DNA of 6,577 bases from an uncultured bacterium. Lineage in GTDB: Bacteria; Chloroflexota; Anaerolineae; JACIWP01. Every line of letters begins with the position of its first letter. Position 1 is the stretch's first letter. The notes under the pieces are model-generated. The model saw only the letters and a list, made by a program, of their open reading frames with translations, did not search any database and had not been told where the DNA came from. The position numbers were made by a program, and so were the translations under genes. Shown piece by piece: positions 1 through 6,577 of the stretch. The stretch covers positions 1 to 6,577 of the forward strand of contig CAIQJD010000009.1 in assembly GCA_903872005.1 (NCBI GenBank). The letters run 5' to 3'.

Positions 1-47
1 CGCAGCGCGTACCCGATGCTCCACCATCCAAGTGAACGCATCAGCAC

Positions 48-55
48 AGAGGAGG
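48..55 (+). promoter_or_regulatory. Ribosome binding site supporting the GTG start at 63
   Basis: AGAGGAGG is a near-perfect anti-Shine-Dalgarno match, 7 nt before the GTG. It decides in favour of the non-ATG start over the ATG at 102. The remaining bases 1-47 hold no feature I can support. Frame 1 is open from base 1 to a TGA at 64-66 that would overlap the GTG, so an upstream gene could end here, but 21 codons are too few to claim it. Confidence 0.8.
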
Positions 56-62
56 CACTACC

Positions 63-590
63 GTGACCAACCAAACAGTCCTGGATGTTCTGACCCGCGC
101 CATGTTCAACGAACAGGATGGCTACAACTTTTACGTGGCAGCGGCCCAGCGCACCAATGACCCTAAGGGCAAGGCCATGTTCCAAAGCCTGGCCAACGAC
201 GAGACCGAGCATCTCACCATCCTCCAGAATGAGTATCAACTGGTCTCGGAAGGCAAAGCCTTCGCCGATCTGGCGACGGCGCGGCAGAAGTTGCCGGCTC
301 GCCCCGACCTGCAACTCTTCCCGGAGAAGGGCATCTTGCAGGACCTGCTCAAACAGGCGACGGGCGACGACGCCATCCTCAAAATCGCCCTCGACTTCGA
401 GCTGAAGGGCTATCAGATGTACGACGCCGCCGGCAAGAGCGCGTCGGACAAGAACGCCGCCGCGATCTTCGCCTACATGGCGAAGATGGAAGACTGGCAC
501 TATGAGCTGATCCAGAAGAGCATCAACTACCTGGCCGACAAAGGCATCTGGTTCTTCGACGAAATCGAACGGCCGCTATTCGAGGGGTGA
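63..590 (+). CDS. Stand-alone ferritin-like (rubrerythrin-type) di-iron protein
   Basis: This 175-residue protein is predicted to be a soluble four-helix-bundle di-iron protein, likely acting in iron or peroxide handling. A full ligand set is visible: E17 on helix A, E47xxH50 on helix B, E113 on helix C and E143xxH146 on helix D, in the order expected for the ferritin/rubrerythrin superfamily. There is no rubredoxin-like Cys4 knuckle, no signal peptide and no membrane segment. The GTG start is chosen because an AGAGGAGG ribosome site lies 7 nt upstream; the next in-frame ATG (102) would remove most of helix A. The C-terminus (ending RPLFEG) lacks an encapsulin-loading motif, so this protein is probably cytosolic, unlike the ferritin-like protein at 2751-3659. 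It is first in a same-strand series with rubrerythrin and rubredoxin. The exact activity (peroxidase, ferroxidase or other) cannot be fixed from sequence alone. Confidence 0.88.
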   Translation: MTNQTVLDVLTRAMFNEQDGYNFYVAAAQRTNDPKGKAMFQSLANDETEHLTILQNEYQLVSEGKAFADLATARQKLPARPDLQLFPEKGILQDLLKQATGDDAILKIALDFELKGYQMYDAAGKSASDKNAAAIFAYMAKMEDWHYELIQKSINYLADKGIWFFDEIERPLFEG

Positions 591-600
591 GCCAGCCGGC

Positions 601-629
601 TTCCCATCTCTGCGGGCGAACGATATAAA
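601..629 (+). promoter_or_regulatory. Weak candidate promoter upstream of rubrerythrin
   Basis: TTCCCA (601-606, 4 of 6 matches to TTGACA) and TATAAA (624-629, 5 of 6 to TATAAT) are separated by 17 nt in the 96-bp gap before the rubrerythrin gene. The -10 lies in a locally AT-richer patch of otherwise GC-rich DNA. The -35 is poor, so this is a suggestion only. It would let rubrerythrin and rubredoxin be expressed separately from the preceding ferritin-like gene. Confidence 0.25.
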
Positions 630-665
630 CCAACGGCGATCACAGACGAGAGAAAAGTTCAGAAT

Positions 666-672
666 GAGGAGG
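666..672 (+). promoter_or_regulatory. Ribosome binding site for rubrerythrin, unusually far from the start
   Basis: GAGGAGG lies 14 nt before the ATG at 687. An ATG at 674 sits only 1 nt from it but reads ATG-AGT-TAG and ends at once. An in-frame TGA at 675-677 prevents any extension of the rubrerythrin frame upstream, so 687 (or the ATG at 696, even further away) must be used. The long spacing may lower initiation efficiency. Confidence 0.6.
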
Positions 673-686
673 CATGAGTTAGACGT

Positions 687-1193
687 ATGCGGAAGATGAC
701 CAAAGCCAATTTGGAAGCAGCCTTCGCCGGCGAAAGCCAGGCCCACATGAAGTATGCTGCCTTCGCTGAGAAAGCGCGGCAGGAAGGCTTCCCCAACGTC
801 GGCCGGCTGTTCCAGGCCATTTCCTACGCCGAGCAGGTGCACGCCACCGGCCATCTGCGCACCCTGGATGGCGTCGGCAAGACGGCTGACAACCTGGAAG
901 CGGCCATCGGCGGCGAGACCTTCGAGGTCGAAGAGATGTACGCGGCGTACAAAGTCGTCGCAGAAGCGCAAGACGAGAAGAGCGCGCTGCGCAGCATCAA
1001 CTACGCGTTGGAGGCCGAGAAGATTCACGCTGTCATGTACGCCGATGCCAAGAAGAGCGTCTTGGCCGGCAAAGATGCCAGCATTGGCGCCGTCTATGTC
1101 TGCGACGTCTGCGGATACACCGGCTTCGGCGAAGCGCCGGATGCCTGCCCGGTCTGCAAAGCCAAGAAAGACAAGTTCAGCGTCTTCAAGTGA
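687..1193 (+). CDS. rbr: Rubrerythrin
   Basis: The 168-residue protein is a classical rubrerythrin, the cytosolic enzyme that reduces hydrogen peroxide to water in anaerobes using electrons from rubredoxin. The N-terminal four-helix bundle carries the expected ligands: E16, E49xxH52, the ExxE pair E80/E83 and E111xxH114. The C-terminal rubredoxin-like domain has C139xxC142 and C154xxC157 for a single Fe(SCys)4 site. Length and domain order match the short form of the family. ATG 687 is the furthest upstream start possible because of an in-frame stop at 675; many homologues begin at the equivalent of the MTKANL stretch, so the ATG at 696 is an alternative. A dedicated rubredoxin follows 36 bp downstream, the usual electron donor arrangement. 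No encapsulin-targeting peptide is seen at the C-terminus (ending FSVFK). Confidence 0.95.
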   Translation: MRKMTKANLEAAFAGESQAHMKYAAFAEKARQEGFPNVGRLFQAISYAEQVHATGHLRTLDGVGKTADNLEAAIGGETFEVEEMYAAYKVVAEAQDEKSALRSINYALEAEKIHAVMYADAKKSVLAGKDASIGAVYVCDVCGYTGFGEAPDACPVCKAKKDKFSVFK

Positions 1194-1229
1194 TCGGCGC
1201 GAACCCAAGCGCCGGCAAGGAGCACCAAC

Positions 1230-1391
1230 ATGAAAAAGTACGAGTGCCTGGCTTGTGGCTATATCTATGACCCGGCGGTAGGCGATCCCGATAACGGCAT
1301 CGCTCCTGGCACGCCCTTCGACAAATTGCCGGCGGACTGGGTCTGCCCGCAGTGTGGCGCTGGCAAGGACATGTTTGAGCCGGCCAGCTAA
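1230..1391 (+). CDS. Rubredoxin
   Basis: This 53-residue protein is a complete canonical rubredoxin, a small cytosolic one-electron carrier with one iron held by four cysteines. The two knuckles are C6-L-A-C9-G-Y and C39-P-Q-C42-G, with the conserved aromatic residues around them (Y4, Y11, Y13, F30, W37) and the conserved DPDNGI turn. AAGGAG lies 7 nt before the ATG, so the start is secure. It sits between rubrerythrin (a known electron acceptor of rubredoxin) and an NADH:rubredoxin-oxidoreductase-type flavoprotein (a known electron donor), so the partners on both sides are encoded next to it. A strong hairpin follows 18 nt after the stop. Confidence 0.96.
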
Positions 1392-1409
1392 CGCGCCGGC
1401 CTCAACTTA

Positions 1410-1472
1410 CAGCGATCAGCGCCCAGCAGGCGATCCCTTGCCCGCTGGGCGTTGATTGCTGCTTCTCGTTTT
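1410..1472 (+). terminator. Strong 18-bp hairpin with imperfect T tail (attenuator or terminator candidate)
   Basis: The arms CAGCGATCAGCGCCCAGC (1410-1427) and GCTGGGCGTTGATTGCTG (1444-1461) pair over 18 bp with only two G-U wobbles. Inside, after one A/C mismatch, GGC/GCC adds three more pairs around an 8-nt loop. The 3' side runs into CTTCTCGTTTT, a broken T tract ending at 1472. The structure lies between the rubredoxin gene and the reductase gene. It could be a partly read-through intrinsic terminator reducing expression of the downstream cargo/encapsulin genes, or an mRNA-stabilising or processing hairpin protecting the upstream transcript. No convincing promoter is seen between it and the next gene. 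Confidence 0.5.
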
Positions 1473-1495
1473 ACACCTGGAAAGGAGCGCATGCG

Positions 1496-2716
1496 ATGCG
1501 TTTCGTGATTCTGGGGAATGGCGTCGCCGGCGTCACGGTCGCGCGTTATCTCGCGCGCGCCGGCTTGCCCGATACATCCATCGAAATCTACACCGATGAA
1601 CCCTTCCCGTACTATCCCAGACCCAAGCTGCCCGATTTCCTGGCCGGCGTCGTCTCGCAAACCGAGCTGATTCCGTACACCCCCGACTGGTACGCCGAAC
1701 GCGGCATTCAGGTGCATCTGAATGCTGGCGCCGCCGCGCTGGACGCTGCCGGCAAACGCCTGATTCTGGCTGACGGGAGCGCCGTCCCCTATGATCGTCT
1801 GCTCCTTGCCAACGGCGGGCGCTCCAACGTCCCCCCGATCCAGGGAGTGCACAAAGCCGGCGTCTTCACCTTGCGTAACCTGACCGACGCGCTCGCCATT
1901 CGCGCCCATGCGGCCAGAGCCGCCACGGCCGTCGTCATCGGCGGCGGCTTGCTGGGACTCGAAGCGGCGCGCGGCCTGAACCTCCTGGGACTGAAAGTCA
2001 CCATCGTCGAATTCTTCGCGCGCCTCTTGCCGCGCCAATTGGACGAGGCCGGCGCAGCCGTCCTGCAAAAGGCCATCGAAGCCCTGGGCATCGCGGTGGT
2101 GACCAATGCCGCCACGGAAGAATTGCTCGGCGCAGAACGCGTCGCCGGCGCGCGCCTGAAAGACGGCCGGCAACTCCCCGCCGACCTGGTGCTGATCTCG
2201 GCCGGCGTGCGCTCGAACGTGGAGTTCGCTGCAGCGGCCGGCCTCAAAGTCAATCGCGGCGTCGTGGTGGATGAAGCCATGCGCGCCAGCGAGCCGGACA
2301 TCTGGGCCGCCGGCGACGTGGCCGAATTTGCCGGCCGCGTCTGGGGCATCATCCCGGCGGCAGTGGAGCAAGCGCGAGTCGCCAGCGCCAATATGCTCGC
2401 CCCGGCCGGCGCCGGCGCGGCCGCCTACGTGGACATCGTGCCAGCGAATACCCTCAAGGTCCTGGGCATTGACCTGACATCTATCGGCAACGTCAACCCC
2501 GAAGGGGCCGGCTTCACCGAATTGCGCCGCGTCGACGCGGCCGCCGGCCGCTACGAGAAGCTGGTCCTGCGCGACGGCAAGATCGTTGGGGCGATCCTCT
2601 TGGGCAGCCAGACGCGCGTTGCCACAGTCTCCGAATTGATCAACCAAGGCGTCAACGTGACGGACGTAGCCGGCCGGCTCCTGGACGATGCCTTCGACCT
2701 GAAACAACTGCTCTAG
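1496..2716 (+). CDS. FAD/NAD(P)H-dependent oxidoreductase, probable NADH:rubredoxin oxidoreductase
   Basis: This 406-residue flavoprotein belongs to the two-dinucleotide-fold pyridine nucleotide-disulfide oxidoreductase superfamily. The N-terminal FAD Rossmann motif is G7-N-G9-V-A-G12. The NAD(P) fold motif is G149-G-G151-L-L-G154, followed by an acidic VE at about 171-172, which favours NADH. The second FAD contact motif is A-A-G-D around 271-274. I see no cysteine anywhere in the protein, so it cannot be a disulfide reductase. The C-terminal part (about 325-406) looks like the small domain found in rubredoxin reductases and NirB-type proteins, with a YEKLVLRDGKIVGAILLG stretch at 353-370. 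Expected role: passing NAD(P)H electrons to the rubredoxin encoded just upstream. AAAGGAG lies 8 nt before the ATG at 1496; the ATG at 1491 is out of frame. No encapsulin-loading peptide is visible. A ferredoxin or other acceptor remains possible. Confidence 0.88.
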   Translation: MRFVILGNGVAGVTVARYLARAGLPDTSIEIYTDEPFPYYPRPKLPDFLAGVVSQTELIPYTPDWYAERGIQVHLNAGAAALDAAGKRLILADGSAVPYDRLLLANGGRSNVPPIQGVHKAGVFTLRNLTDALAIRAHAARAATAVVIGGGLLGLEAARGLNLLGLKVTIVEFFARLLPRQLDEAGAAVLQKAIEALGIAVVTNAATEELLGAERVAGARLKDGRQLPADLVLISAGVRSNVEFAAAAGLKVNRGVVVDEAMRASEPDIWAAGDVAEFAGRVWGIIPAAVEQARVASANMLAPAGAGAAAYVDIVPANTLKVLGIDLTSIGNVNPEGAGFTELRRVDAAAGRYEKLVLRDGKIVGAILLGSQTRVATVSELINQGVNVTDVAGRLLDDAFDLKQLL

Positions 2717-2731
2717 ACCTGGCGTTGCCAT

Positions 2732-2739
2732 GAGGAGGT
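2732..2739 (+). promoter_or_regulatory. Ribosome binding site that sets the cargo gene start at 2751
   Basis: GAGGAGGT is a very strong Shine-Dalgarno sequence 11 nt before the ATG at 2751. An earlier in-frame ATG at 2730 would add seven residues (MRRWKSH), but that ATG precedes and is partly read through the ribosome site itself and has no site of its own upstream. The 2751 start is therefore preferred. Confidence 0.8.
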
Positions 2740-2750
2740 GGAAATCGCAC

Positions 2751-3659
2751 ATGGACAAAACGAGAGCCATCGAGCTACTGAGCCTGGACATGCAAGACGA
2801 GCATGCCGCTATCATGCAATACTTGACCCAAGCCTACGCCATCGGCGAGGGAGACTTGGCCTGCGAAATGGAGGCCATCGCGCGTGAAGAGATGCAGCAC
2901 TTCCGCTGGTTGGCCGAGACCATTGGCGCGTTGGGGGGCAAGCCAGACATGCGTCGCGGCAACGTCGTCTTCGGCGGGCCGCGCGTCGTCGCCATGCTGG
3001 GCGAAGATGTCAGCGCCGAAGAGCGCGCCATCGCCCAGTATCGCGCCCACATCGCCGAGCTGAACGACCCGGCCATCACCCTCACCTTGAACCGCATCAT
3101 CGCCGACGAAGACGCCCACCACGCCAAATTCGTCAAATTGCAGACAGAGCCGGACCCGGCGCTGGAAGTACGCATGGAATCCGCGCCGGCAGCCGAAATG
3201 CAGCACGTCGCCGGCTTCTTGCAAGAAGATGCCACCCACGAGTATACTGTCATCTTGCAATACTTGGCCCATGCGTTCGCGACGCCCCACTGCGAGGTGG
3301 AGCACGAAATGGAGCATGCCGCCATCGAAGAAATGCGCCATCTAGGCTGGCTGGCCGAGGAGATGGAAGGACTGGGCGGGCGCGTCGCCATGAATCACGA
3401 CGACCTGGCCCTGCCGGCCGGCACCGACTCCATGCTGGGCGCCGATATCGCCATCGAGAAGTCGGTAGCCGCCGAATACCGTCGCCAGGCGGCCGCATCT
3501 GATCCGGAGACCGCCAGGCTCTTCGAGCGGCTGGCCGGCGAAGAGGAACATCACATCCACGTCTTCAAGGGGCTGCTGACCCAAGCAGCGCCAGCGCACC
3601 CCGCGCCGACCCAACCGAAGCTCACCATAGGCAGCCTGCTGGGCAAGCAACAGAAATAG
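2751..3659 (+). CDS. Tandem double ferritin-like protein, predicted encapsulin cargo
   Basis: The 302-residue protein is an internal duplication of a ferritin-like four-helix bundle. Domain 1 (about 1-131) has E17, E47xxH50, E91 and E120xxH123. Domain 2 (about 150-277) has the matching E164, E194xxH197, E236 and E264xxH267, at a steady offset of 144-147 residues. Both halves thus keep a full di-iron ligand set. Strongly similar segments include MQYLTQAYA versus LQYLAHAFA and REEMQHFRWLAE versus IEEMRHLGWLAE. The C-terminus is a Pro/Ala-rich linker (about 279-289) followed by LTIGSLLG (291-298), which closely matches the LTVGSL-type loading peptide of known encapsulin cargo. The encapsulin gene starts 44 bp downstream. 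Expected role: ferroxidase, iron storage or peroxide reduction inside the shell. Single-domain encapsulated ferritins are about 100-130 residues; this fused form is unusual. Whether it mineralises iron is not shown by sequence. Confidence 0.9.
   Translation: MDKTRAIELLSLDMQDEHAAIMQYLTQAYAIGEGDLACEMEAIAREEMQHFRWLAETIGALGGKPDMRRGNVVFGGPRVVAMLGEDVSAEERAIAQYRAHIAELNDPAITLTLNRIIADEDAHHAKFVKLQTEPDPALEVRMESAPAAEMQHVAGFLQEDATHEYTVILQYLAHAFATPHCEVEHEMEHAAIEEMRHLGWLAEEMEGLGGRVAMNHDDLALPAGTDSMLGADIAIEKSVAAEYRRQAAASDPETARLFERLAGEEEHHIHVFKGLLTQAAPAHPAPTQPKLTIGSLLGKQQK
3621..3644 (+). other. Encapsulin cargo-loading peptide coding segment (LTIGSLLG)
   Basis: These codons encode residues 291-298 of the tandem ferritin-like protein, close to the C-terminus and after a flexible Pro/Ala linker. 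The pattern L-T-I/V-G-S-L is the well-known motif that docks cargo on the inner surface of family 1 encapsulin shells. None of the other proteins in the window ends in such a motif. Confidence 0.88.
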
Positions 3660-3703
3660 CGTAAGGAATCACCGAGCCACCAAGAGGAGGATCATAGATC
3701 ATC

Positions 3704-4480
3704 ATGGACGAGCTACTCATGCGTAACGCAGCGCCTCTCAGCGCCGAAACCTGGCACGCCATTGACGAAACGGTCGAGCATGTGGGGCGACAACAATTGG
3801 TCGGCCGGCGCTTCGTCAGCCTGGTCGGTCCCCTGGGCGCCGGCGCGCAAACGGTACCGACGGCCAAAGTCGAAGCCGGCGAAACCATCCGCGTCAGCGA
3901 GCGCCGCCTGCTGGAGTTCACGCCCCTGAGCCAGGACTTCATCATCGCCTACGAAGAACTGGTGGCCGCTCAACAATCGGGCCTCGGGCTGGACCTGGGG
4001 CCGGCGGCCATGGCGACGGCCGCGCTGGCCAAAGCCGAAGATGAGCTGCTCTTCGCCGGCCTCAAGGGCGCCAAAGGCGTCGCCTCCGCGCCCCTGGGCG
4101 AATGGGACAAGAGCGGCGGAGCCTTCGCCGCAGTCGCCGGCGCGCTGGAGAAGCTCATCGGCGCCGGCGTCTATGGCCCCTACGCCCTGGCGCTCAGCCC
4201 CGGCCTGTACACTCAGACCCAGCGCCTGATGGCCGATTCCGGCCTGCTGGAAATCCAACAAATCCGCGATCTGGTGGGCGGCAACGTCTACTTCTCGCCG
4301 GCGCTCAAGCCCAAAGAAGGCATTCTGGTTGCCAATGCCCCTTACAACCTGGATCTGGTGATCGCCCAGGACATGGTCGTGGCCTACACGGCCAATGTCG
4401 GCCTCGATCATAGCTTTCGGTTGATGGAGAAGCTGGCCCTGCGGGTCAAACGGCCGGCGGCCATCTGCGTGTTGAAATGA
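3704..4480 (+). CDS. enc: Family 1 encapsulin nanocompartment shell protein
   Basis: This 258-residue protein is a HK97-fold encapsulin (linocin M18-like) that should self-assemble into a closed protein shell around the cargo encoded just upstream. Recognisable family features run the full length: an N-terminal MDELLMRNAAPLS-type helix (1-13) that forms the cargo-docking region in homologues, GRRFVSLVGPLG (34-45), AKAEDELLFAG (109-119), VYGPYALALSPGLY (156-169) and the C-terminal RPAAICVL (250-257). The length suits the small T=1, 60-subunit class, though T number cannot be read from sequence. AGAGGAGG lies 13 nt before the ATG at 3704, and the family N-terminus supports this start over the ATG at 3719. 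There are only two tryptophans (W17, W134) and none near residues 80-100, so the flavin site reported for the Thermotoga maritima shell may be absent. A terminator follows the gene, making it the last gene of its unit. Confidence 0.96.
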   Translation: MDELLMRNAAPLSAETWHAIDETVEHVGRQQLVGRRFVSLVGPLGAGAQTVPTAKVEAGETIRVSERRLLEFTPLSQDFIIAYEELVAAQQSGLGLDLGPAAMATAALAKAEDELLFAGLKGAKGVASAPLGEWDKSGGAFAAVAGALEKLIGAGVYGPYALALSPGLYTQTQRLMADSGLLEIQQIRDLVGGNVYFSPALKPKEGILVANAPYNLDLVIAQDMVVAYTANVGLDHSFRLMEKLALRVKRPAAICVLK

Positions 4481-4506
4481 CGCCCAGCTAGGCTGACGAT
4501 GGACAG

Positions 4507-4545
4507 ACGGCCGCCGCTCTCTATGGGAGTGGCGGCCGTTCTTGC
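4507..4545 (+). terminator. Rho-independent terminator after the encapsulin gene
   Basis: ACGGCCGCC (4507-4515) pairs perfectly with GGCGGCCGT (4531-4539). The stem continues inward with a G-U pair and CTC/GAG around a short loop, giving about 13 bp. The downstream strand is moderately T-rich (TTCTTGCTGT), starting inside the 3' edge of the stem. It lies 26 nt after the encapsulin stop and upstream of a clear promoter for the next gene, so it separates the two transcription units. Confidence 0.75.
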
Positions 4546-4572
4546 TGTAAGCTCCAGGCGCAAAATTGGGAC

Positions 4573-4601
4573 TTGACAACTCCGCGAAAGGGTGGTACAA
4601 T
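4573..4601 (+). promoter_or_regulatory. Near-consensus sigma70-type promoter of the GntR regulator
   Basis: TTGACA (4573-4578) is a perfect -35 and TACAAT (4596-4601) is 5 of 6 for the -10, with an optimal 17-nt spacer. Transcription should begin near 4607-4609, only about 4-6 nt before the ATG at 4613. It is the best promoter in the window and drives the regulator and, by overlap, the methyltransferase gene. Confidence 0.8.
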
Positions 4602-4612
4602 CATCTTAAGTT

Positions 4613-5362
4613 ATGAATATCAGATATTTAGATAATCAGCAGAATACCGATGACCCGATGCAACCCTTCTCACCCAAGAGTACGATGGTCGCTGACCTCA
4701 TCCGTGAGCTGAACGTGAGAATATGGCGCGGCGACTTCAAGCCCGGCGCCTTCTTGCCGCCGCAGAAGGACCTGGCCGCGCAACTGGGCGTCAGCATCTC
4801 CACGGTACGCGAAGCCATCCAGGGATTGGTCGCGATGGGTCTGCTGGAATCGCGTCCCGGCAAGGGCACGTGGGTCCGCCCCGACGCACTGGATGGATTG
4901 GTATCTCCATCTGTCGTGCGAGCGCGTCTCGGCACGCTCAGCGCACGGATGGTCTACGAAACACGCACGGTGATCGAAGTCGGCCTGACGGAATTGGCCG
5001 CGGAGCGCGCCTCTGAAGAGGAAACGCAACGCATTGGCGCAGCCCTGGAGCAGATGAAGGCTCACGTCAACGACGAACAGACGTTCTTGCGAGCCGACCT
5101 GGAATTCCATCTGGCTGTGGCCGAAGCCAGCCACAATGACCTGCTCTATCAGCTCTATATCCTTTCGCGCAATCTGGTATCCGAAGTCATCGCGCAACTG
5201 GTTCAAGGCCAGACCGTACGAGAGGATTCTGTACGCTTGCAAGAAGATATCCTGCGATCCATCGCCAGCCGGCAGCCGGCCGCCGCGCGCCACGCCGCCC
5301 TGGCCCACATGCACTACATCCGGCCATTCTTTGAATCGCCGCCAGAAACGGAGTCGCCATGA
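4613..5362 (+). CDS. GntR family transcriptional regulator, FadR subfamily (FCD domain)
   Basis: The 249-residue protein is a ligand-responsive DNA-binding regulator. The winged helix-turn-helix spans about 25-90, with the GntR hallmarks LPPQKDLAAQLGVSISTVREAI (48-69) and G-L-L-E-S-R-P-G-K-G-T-W-V (76-88). The C-terminal helical FCD domain (about 112-240) keeps the metal-ligand positions D162 and H166 (ADLEFHLAVAEASHN) and H232. The usual third-position histidine (EHxxI motif) appears to be Q210 in RLQEDI, so metal binding may be altered. Start choice is uncertain: no candidate (4613, 4658, 4685) has a good ribosome site. I take 4613 because the promoter predicts a nearly leaderless transcript; however, the first 15 codons are AT-rich and unlike the rest, so 4658 is quite possible. 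Its TGA overlaps the ATG of the next gene, so it probably regulates that operon. Confidence 0.88.
   Translation: MNIRYLDNQQNTDDPMQPFSPKSTMVADLIRELNVRIWRGDFKPGAFLPPQKDLAAQLGVSISTVREAIQGLVAMGLLESRPGKGTWVRPDALDGLVSPSVVRARLGTLSARMVYETRTVIEVGLTELAAERASEEETQRIGAALEQMKAHVNDEQTFLRADLEFHLAVAEASHNDLLYQLYILSRNLVSEVIAQLVQGQTVREDSVRLQEDILRSIASRQPAAARHAALAHMHYIRPFFESPPETESP
4616..4628 (+). promoter_or_regulatory. AT-rich palindrome, candidate operator
   Basis: AATATC-A-GATATT is a perfect inverted repeat with 6-bp arms around one central base, lying about 8-20 bp downstream of the predicted transcription start. It sits in a conspicuous AT-rich patch (about 4605-4645) within GC-rich DNA. The position suits roadblock autorepression by the adjacent GntR-type protein. 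The sequence does not match a known FadR-type site that I can name, so the assignment is by position only. Confidence 0.3.
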
Positions 5363-6577
5363 TCTATCCTAATCTGCATGCCGCGCCACGAGCACACGTC
5401 TTCAGTGATGCTCAAATTCAACAGATTCACCTGGCTACCCTGGAATTGCTGGAACGCACCGGCATGCAGATCACGCACGCCGGCGCGCGCGAAATGCTCT
5501 ATCGCGCCGGCGCGCGCGTGGATGGAAATCGCGTCCGCATCCCTTCGCATCTGGTTGAAGAAGCCCTGCGCCGGGCGCCCCATCGGGTCGTCCTGGGAAA
5601 ACGCGATGGCTCCCGCTCCCTTTTCCTGGAAGAACGCAAGTATTACTATGGCGCGAGTCTGGATTGCCCGGACTACCTGGATCCAGCCACCAATGAGCGC
5701 CGGCCCTTCACTCGCGCCGACTGTCGGCAGACCGCTGCCCTGGCTGATACCCTCCCCAACTACGCCTGGGTCATGACTTGCGGCATGGCGGCCGATGCGC
5801 CGGCGGCCCTCACCGACCGCACCGCCGTGAAAGATACCCTCACGCACTGCGCGAAGCCGCTGGTCTTCATCTGCAAGGACGCACAAAGCGCCCGCGATAT
5901 CTACGAGATGGCCCTGCTCATCGCCGGCGGCGAAGAACGCTTCCGCCAGGCCCCTTTCCTGGTGCACTACTCCGAGCCAGTCTCGCCCCTGGTGCATTTC
6001 GATCCGGCCGTGGACAAGCTGCTCTTCTGCGCCGAAAAGGGCATCCCGCTCATCTACTTCCCGGCGCCCATGGCCGGCGGCACCGCGCCGGTGACCTTTG
6101 CCGGCGCCATCGTCCAGGCCAGCGCCGAATCCCTCAGCGGACTCGTTCTGGCGCAACTGGCCCACCCTGGCGCGCCCTTCATCTACGGCGCGTTCACCAC
6201 CATCATGGATATGACCAGCACCGTCTTTTCCTACGCCGCGCCAGAAATGAGCCTGATGGTCGCCGGCATCACCGAGATGGCGCACTTCTACGGCCTGCCG
6301 GTCTTTGGCACTGCCGGCTGCTCCGATGCCAAGTTTCCCGACCAGCAGGCCGCCGCAGAGGCCGCCTTCTCCTGTTTCAGCTCGGCCCTCAACGGGGCCA
6401 ACCTGATTCATGACTGCGGCTGGCTGGACCATGGCGCGCTGGCCTCGCCGGCGCACATGACCCTGGTCAACGAAATCCTCTACATGGTGCGCCAATACAT
6501 GCAGGGCATCCCGGTCAGCGACGAAACGCTGGCCCTCGATGTCATCCATCAGGTCGGCCCCGGCGGCCACTTCCTCC
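5359..6577 (+). CDS. MttB-family corrinoid-dependent methyltransferase (partial, C-terminus beyond window)
   Basis: The frame is open from the ATG at 5359 to the window end (406 residues visible; family members are usually about 470-500). MttB-family proteins move a methyl group from a methylated or quaternary amine to a corrinoid protein. Visible family features are the N-terminal segment with LELLERTGMQI (28-38), PMAGGTAPVTFAGAI (237-251) in the TIM-barrel core, LPVFGTAGCSDAK (313-325) and VGPGGHFL (399-406) near the usual C-terminal region. No in-frame TAG occurs in these 406 codons, which cover the region holding pyrrolysine in methanogen MttB. It is therefore likely a non-pyrrolysine homologue, such as those acting on glycine betaine, proline betaine or carnitine; the true substrate is unknown. 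GGAG (5350-5353) lies 5 nt before the start, and the ATGA overlap with the regulator (5359-5362) suggests translational coupling. A corrinoid protein gene may follow outside the window. Confidence 0.9.
   Translation, partial: MIYPNLHAAPRAHVFSDAQIQQIHLATLELLERTGMQITHAGAREMLYRAGARVDGNRVRIPSHLVEEALRRAPHRVVLGKRDGSRSLFLEERKYYYGASLDCPDYLDPATNERRPFTRADCRQTAALADTLPNYAWVMTCGMAADAPAALTDRTAVKDTLTHCAKPLVFICKDAQSARDIYEMALLIAGGEERFRQAPFLVHYSEPVSPLVHFDPAVDKLLFCAEKGIPLIYFPAPMAGGTAPVTFAGAIVQASAESLSGLVLAQLAHPGAPFIYGAFTTIMDMTSTVFSYAAPEMSLMVAGITEMAHFYGLPVFGTAGCSDAKFPDQQAAAEAAFSCFSSALNGANLIHDCGWLDHGALASPAHMTLVNEILYMVRQYMQGIPVSDETLALDVIHQVGPGGHFL

Follow-up and report, generated by a model that had tools for sequence, protein, structure and literature searches.

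The encapsulated ferritins whose structures have been solved are, according to PMC11202242, either helical-pair ferritin-like proteins (FLPs) or IMEF. Bacterioferritin (Bfr) cargos made of two four-helix bundles and carrying targeting peptides are also on record, being listed by Andreas & Giessen in 2021, in PMC8346489, for hosts that include Chloroflexi. Here we describe a locus of this kind on a 6,577-nucleotide stretch of DNA from an uncultured bacterium of the Chloroflexota (contig CAIQJD010000009.1, positions 1 to 6,577; the whole stretch is referred to below as the window). It comprises a gene for a tandem ferritin of 302 residues (2751..3659, forward strand) and, 44 base pairs further on, a gene for an encapsulin shell protein of 258 residues (3704..4480, forward strand). 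With its two bundles, a conserved C-terminal targeting peptide and a family 1 operon, the window shows the features of the class, and since two-bundle Bfr cargos had already been predicted in 2021 we regard it as a further case of a known type of cargo. An earlier note, made from the sequence alone, had proposed a distinct cargo class here; the substance of that proposal holds, whilst its newness does not survive the description in PMC8346489.

Both genes are as the earlier note had set them out, and the shell protein falls in family 1 (NF041155, 219.5 bits against a cut-off of 100; PF04454, 199.2 bits). The start of the cargo gene is taken as 2751 rather than 2730 because the closest homologues begin at the methionine encoded at 2751 and an AGGAGG lies upstream. 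The two halves of the cargo are homologous to one another (34% identity over 125 columns, E 7e-19). An AlphaFold2 model built from 31 sequences has eight helices arranged as two four-helix bundles, with a mean predicted local distance difference test score (pLDDT) of 92.3 and a predicted template modelling score of 0.87. The first bundle spans residues 3-130 (2757..3140, forward strand) and holds the ligand set E17/E47/H50/E90/E120/H123; the second spans residues 148-279 (3192..3587, forward strand) and holds E164/E194/H197/E236/E265/H268. Conservation was followed in an alignment of 201 rows, some of them near-duplicates, comprising the window, 120 homologous proteins (those listed of 756 passing E 0.001) and 80 loci. 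Eleven of the 12 di-iron ligands are identical in 201/201 rows and H268 in 200/201, so that the two complete E/ExxH/E/ExxH sets claimed previously are upheld by alignment and model alike. Equally invariant (201/201 each) are M48 and M195, each one residue past the ExxH glutamate, which the helix topology of ferritins and the ligand numbering of classical Bfr place at the haem-ligand position. No helix is modelled at residues 131-147 or after residue 279, and thus neither half has the E-helix of Bfr in the model.

Departures from this pattern occur among relatives. In locus L098 (genome G366) the second-half ligand E194 is replaced by histidine, with the adjacent methionine retained, and further second-half ligands have apparently been lost. 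Single-bundle ferritin-like genes also occur as adjacent pairs (L104/L108 in G273 and L106/L109 in G348), plausibly representing the state of the tandem before fusion.

The targeting peptide, LTIGSLLG (residues 291-298; 3621..3644, forward strand), is followed by KQQK, so the tag does not lie at the extreme C-terminus; the earlier statement that the chain ends in this motif is right as to its presence and wrong as to its final position. The peptide fits the consensus L/F-x-V/I-x-x-L/I given in PMC11202242 and sits on a tail of low confidence, pLDDT being below 50 at residues 287-296 and 298-300. Modelling of the cargo alone, which had been proposed as a check, thus gave two bundles and a tag on a low-confidence tail. 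The Myxococcus xanthus tag employed in PMC7925596, PLTVGSLRRGG, is close to the KLTIGSLLGKQQK of the window. With the tag defined as [TS][VIL]G[SPTN]L in the last 70 residues, 81 of the 120 homologues listed carry it, 72 of these 81 as LTVGSL or FTVGSL, whilst the linker ahead of it is variable. The remaining 39 do not amount to a count of true absence, since some look truncated at contig ends (P0023 ends in FTVGS). That one chain bears two sites and a single tag, in distinction from the helical-pair EncFtn, is supported by the model, by the conservation of the ligands and by EncFtn-type scores below the NCBIfam cut-offs (EncB_fam, 49.4 of 90 bits; ferrit_encaps, 26.3 of 125 bits).

The presence of the tag goes together with that of an encapsulin. 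The 80 loci are the best 80 of 128 genome-contig stretches encoding relatives of the cargo, and six of them are tagged (L001, L002, L007, L014, L055 and L070). In all six an encapsulin gene begins 26-67 base pairs past the cargo stop codon; no nearby encapsulin was found in the 74 loci without a seen tag, some of whose contigs are short, L050 ending before its tail. When the search was extended to whole genomes, metagenome assemblies that are perhaps incomplete, encapsulin was present for 6/6 tagged loci and 1/74 of the others. The lone exception is G037 (L082), in which the encapsulin adjoins a separate protein of 125 residues ending in TTIGSLKE, which scores above the cut-off for PF02915 and below that for the EncFtn-like PF22277. 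A second draw took 400 genomes evenly from the same phylum, centred on G001, and searched them with the cargo alignment at 1e-20. Twenty matched: 11 with tandem proteins, one (G368) with two adjacent separate genes and eight with single-bundle proteins. Encapsulin occurred in 15 of the 400, ten of which had no tandem match. All five tagged tandem genomes (G001, G098, G215, G216 and G460) encode an encapsulin, directly adjacent in four and about 4.3 kb downstream of the tandem gene in G098; G215, ending in IPSVGKLK and missed by the motif, and G460, ending in PIGSLIH, were scored as tagged by eye. None of the six genomes with an untagged tandem protein (G009, G043, G087, G099, G127 and G366) gave an encapsulin. 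Three of the 11 tandem genomes (G001, G009 and G043) were already among those of the 80 loci, and over distinct genomes encapsulin is found in 10/10 tagged against 1/78 others (Fisher p 2.4e-12, kinship ignored).

This co-occurrence supports the proposal, made in the earlier note, that the tandem protein is an encapsulin cargo, and the tag on its tail probably docks the ferritin inside the virus-like shell. Homologues lacking the tag in genomes lacking encapsulin had been named beforehand as evidence that would count against such a role. They do exist, but the role of the tag is not refuted by them; rather, they support it, since the tag and the shell come and go as a pair. A quickly built tree of 135 rows (the window, 62 dereplicated tagged proteins and 72 of the 80 loci, with the untagged listed proteins left out) has the tag changing at least four times, three of these changes being forced by well-supported branches. 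L005 lies within a clade of 11 rows of which ten are tagged (Shimodaira-Hasegawa-like approximate likelihood ratio support 97), yet it has neither tag nor encapsulin.

The cargo and encapsulin genes form the end of a longer cluster on the same strand. This begins with a rubrerythrin-family ferritin-like protein of 175 residues (63..590; PF02915, 53.5 bits) and a rubrerythrin of 168 residues with a C-terminal rubredoxin-like domain (687..1193; PF02915, 78.8 bits; PF21349, 41.3 bits). An open reading frame for a rubredoxin of 53 residues (1230..1391; PF00301, 87.7 bits), a member of the cluster that the earlier note had left unmentioned, and a FAD/NADH oxidoreductase of 406 residues of the NADH:rubredoxin reductase type (1496..2716; PF07992, 194.3 bits; PF18267 Rubredoxin_C, 67.4 bits) follow, all on the forward strand. 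Downstream of the encapsulin, a GntR/FCD regulator gene (4613-5362) overlaps the start of a gene for an MttB-family methyltransferase (5359-6576), the two probably forming a separate unit. The gene order of the window is repeated in L001, rubredoxin included, and in L002 for the genes tested, rubredoxin not being among them; each has one additional rubrerythrin-like match. A reductase of the same type lies upstream in 6/6 tagged loci; L014 and L055 have it fused with rubredoxin, and L007 and L070 have a superoxide reductase in addition. Small cysteine-rich proteins are encoded between superoxide reductase and cargo in the latter two (L007:2567-2740 and L070:4643-4813), that of L007 matching the TRASH metal-binding domain PF08394. 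Amongst the 74 untagged loci a reductase match was found in eight and a second-rubrerythrin match in 12, and 6/13 untagged loci examined gene by gene retain both reductase and rubrerythrin. Directly ahead of the encapsulin gene of G098 (L112) lies a gene for a flavodiiron-type protein that matches PF19583 and flavodoxin. One tagged tandem ferritin, P0080 (392 residues, from a cluster of four sequences and one contig), carries a rubredoxin at its N-terminus, which suggests an electron carrier within the shell; among the 120 listed of its 132 homologues, P0080 itself is the only one with such a domain.

The closest sequence match of the encapsulin is EncA of M. xanthus (1.9e-51, compared with 8.5e-15 for Thermotoga maritima). 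Its model has a pLDDT of 86.2, and a comparison of folds places EncA, Q. thermotolerans and further large-shell chains, B. methanolicus and engineered ones among them, first (root-mean-square deviation about 2-5); the shells of T. maritima, of mycobacteria and of the DyP type rank below them (5.0-6.0). Together this points to a shell of the EncA-type group; its T number is not fixed by the comparison, EncA itself also being matched as T=1. The shells of L014 (4412-5290) and L055 (11011-11871) have a cysteine-rich insertion, weaker in L070 and L007, near the E-loop site of EncA, for which metal binding or the cross-linking of subunits is a conceivable role. Within the 70 residues after GPxGxG there are ten cysteines in L014, six in L055, four in L070, two in L007 and none in L001 and L002, and the only cysteine of the window's encapsulin is residue 255.

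Our favoured explanation, which we judge to be probable, is that the cargo is a covalent tandem ferroxidase resembling mini-bacterioferritin (mini-Bfr), loaded by its C-terminal tag into the adjoining EncA-type family 1 encapsulin and supplied with haem and with electrons from rubredoxin. The flexible targeting peptide would load the tandem ferritin into the shell encoded next to it, where each half would use O2 or H2O2 to oxidise Fe(II), the ferric mineral being retained by the large EncA-type shell. The joined bundles may constitute a built-in dimer of the Bfr type, with haem or coproheme held between M48 and M195. Electrons passing from NADH through the reductase to rubredoxin would serve the rubrerythrins and possibly, via this haem, the reductive release of iron. 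Taken together, the cluster would serve a Chloroflexota bacterium of anaerobic or microaerophilic habit as a module for holding iron and for defence against oxygen. A narrower version, which we offer tentatively as possible rather than probable, has a mini-Bfr dimer with one haem or coproheme between its halves, present as a six-chain, 12-bundle sphere or as free dimers in a large shell and forming an electron-wired iron store, into which NADH, the reductase and rubredoxin would feed electrons by way of that haem.

Several points weigh against this explanation. The match by fold to mini-Bfr, top in Foldseek where the matches listed mainly span one bundle, is tied with one to DpsL. Independent pairings of tag and encapsulin are few, one on well-supported branches and four on all, which leaves little power. 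Helix E alone does not settle whether a ferritin forms a 12-mer or a 24-mer, according to PMC13168243, and consequently its absence is not decisive against a 24-mer. Finally, as many as 74 of the 80 tandem loci have neither a seen tag nor a nearby encapsulin.

Three other explanations draw on these points or on the gene cluster. The cargo might act mainly as a reductive scavenger of O2 or H2O2 that stores little iron, working as a peroxidase or oxidase in the manner of rubrerythrin with rubredoxin as its electron source. The rubrerythrins, rubredoxin and reductase adjoining it favour this, as do the superoxide reductases of L007 and L070, the flavodiiron-type protein of L112 and the fusion in P0080. 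Nevertheless we think it rather unlikely: the fusion is confined to one of the 120 listed P0080 homologues, the ligand pattern and fold are those of Bfr and mini-Bfr, for which ferroxidase activity is the established chemistry, and a closed shell would seem better suited to mineral than to detoxification. It is less likely again that the cargo is a Bfr forming a cage of the 24-subunit type within the encapsulin, the shell-within-shell arrangement raised by Andreas & Giessen. Besides the latitude over helix E, Bfr-type matches in Pfam, NCBIfam (below cut-off) and the PDB speak for it. However, both modelled halves lack the E-helix, which makes the four-fold axis of 24-mers (PMC13168243), the score for the TIGR00754 bfr equivalog is far under its cut-off (32.8 against 125.55 bits), and in Foldseek the 12-mer mini-Bfr comes first. 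It is highly improbable that the protein is a cytosolic ferritin that merely adjoins an encapsulin, its tag having arisen by chance or been inherited as a tail: in spite of the many untagged loci and the few independent changes remaining after phylogenetic correction, LTVGSL or FTVGSL is kept in most tagged homologues listed as the linker varies, every distinct tagged genome tested has an encapsulin, and L005 lacks both in the midst of a tagged clade.

If the favoured explanation is right, two closed di-iron bundles with a haem-position methionine each would alter the stoichiometry expected of the cargo, and the methionines would open a way of reducing the iron stored within the shell, a process that is, to our knowledge, poorly understood. 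With homologues that are tagged or untagged by nature, the effect of encapsulation on a single enzyme is open to direct comparison. The likeness to mini-Bfr and the oxygen-defence setting suggest new, testable ideas on how the cargo works. Searches of PubMed Central, preprints excluded and most papers covered below full-text level, turned up no account of haem or of mini-Bfr traits in tandem cargos of encapsulins, and none of the invariant double methionine or of tag and shell occurring together in this family.

A number of parallels and differences can be drawn with known systems. The class of Andreas & Giessen (PMC8346489) shares with the window two four-helix bundles, a conserved C-terminal peptide, a family 1 operon and Chloroflexi hosts, and is treated as Bfr with a possible cage-in-cage, whereas the halves here lack a modelled E-helix and resemble mini-Bfr. 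As a classical 24-mer Bfr the cargo was rejected, on the missing E-helix and the TIGR00754 score far under its cut-off. The mini-Bfr of 'Ca. Methanoperedens' (9qq4/9qq5, PMC13168243), a small haem ferritin described only recently, is, like each cargo half, a bare four-helix bundle with a canonical di-iron site and a methionine at the haem-ligand position, but it is a single-domain 12-mer without a tag. Its signature His29 corresponds, by an ungapped hand count from the first glutamate ligand, to A28 and A175 of the cargo; A28 is alanine in 196/201 rows and A175 mostly serine, asparagine or alanine, with a histidine one position earlier in the second half (H174, 187/201). Its Gly34 is matched by G34 in 186/201 rows for the first half, the corresponding loop of the window's second half having no glycine, and its Arg13 is not conserved. 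The cargo was rejected as a strict mini-Bfr, His29 being missing at the matching position and a tandem with a tail replacing the lone bundle. PDB entry 9viw, a 306-residue 'Bacterioferritin' absent from the 50 Foldseek matches listed (structure library to 2026-04-08), counts with mini-Bfr as nearest to the cargo among solved proteins and is a tandem homologue across residues 3-273 that keeps both haem-position methionines and differs in having serine in place of E194. EncFtn, EncB and EncC, like the cargo, are ferroxidase-type proteins with a TVGSL-type tag and an adjoining encapsulin, but EncFtn has a structured domain of about 100 residues assembled as a decamer of helical pairs (PMC11202242), whereas each cargo half is a full bundle. 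The assignment to EncFtn was rejected on the two complete bundles per chain and the scores under the EncB_fam and ferrit_encaps cut-offs. We know of no solved encapsulated ferritin that contains haem, and an electron-wired iron store, if that is what this locus encodes, would stand apart from the EncFtn and IMEF cargos known so far.
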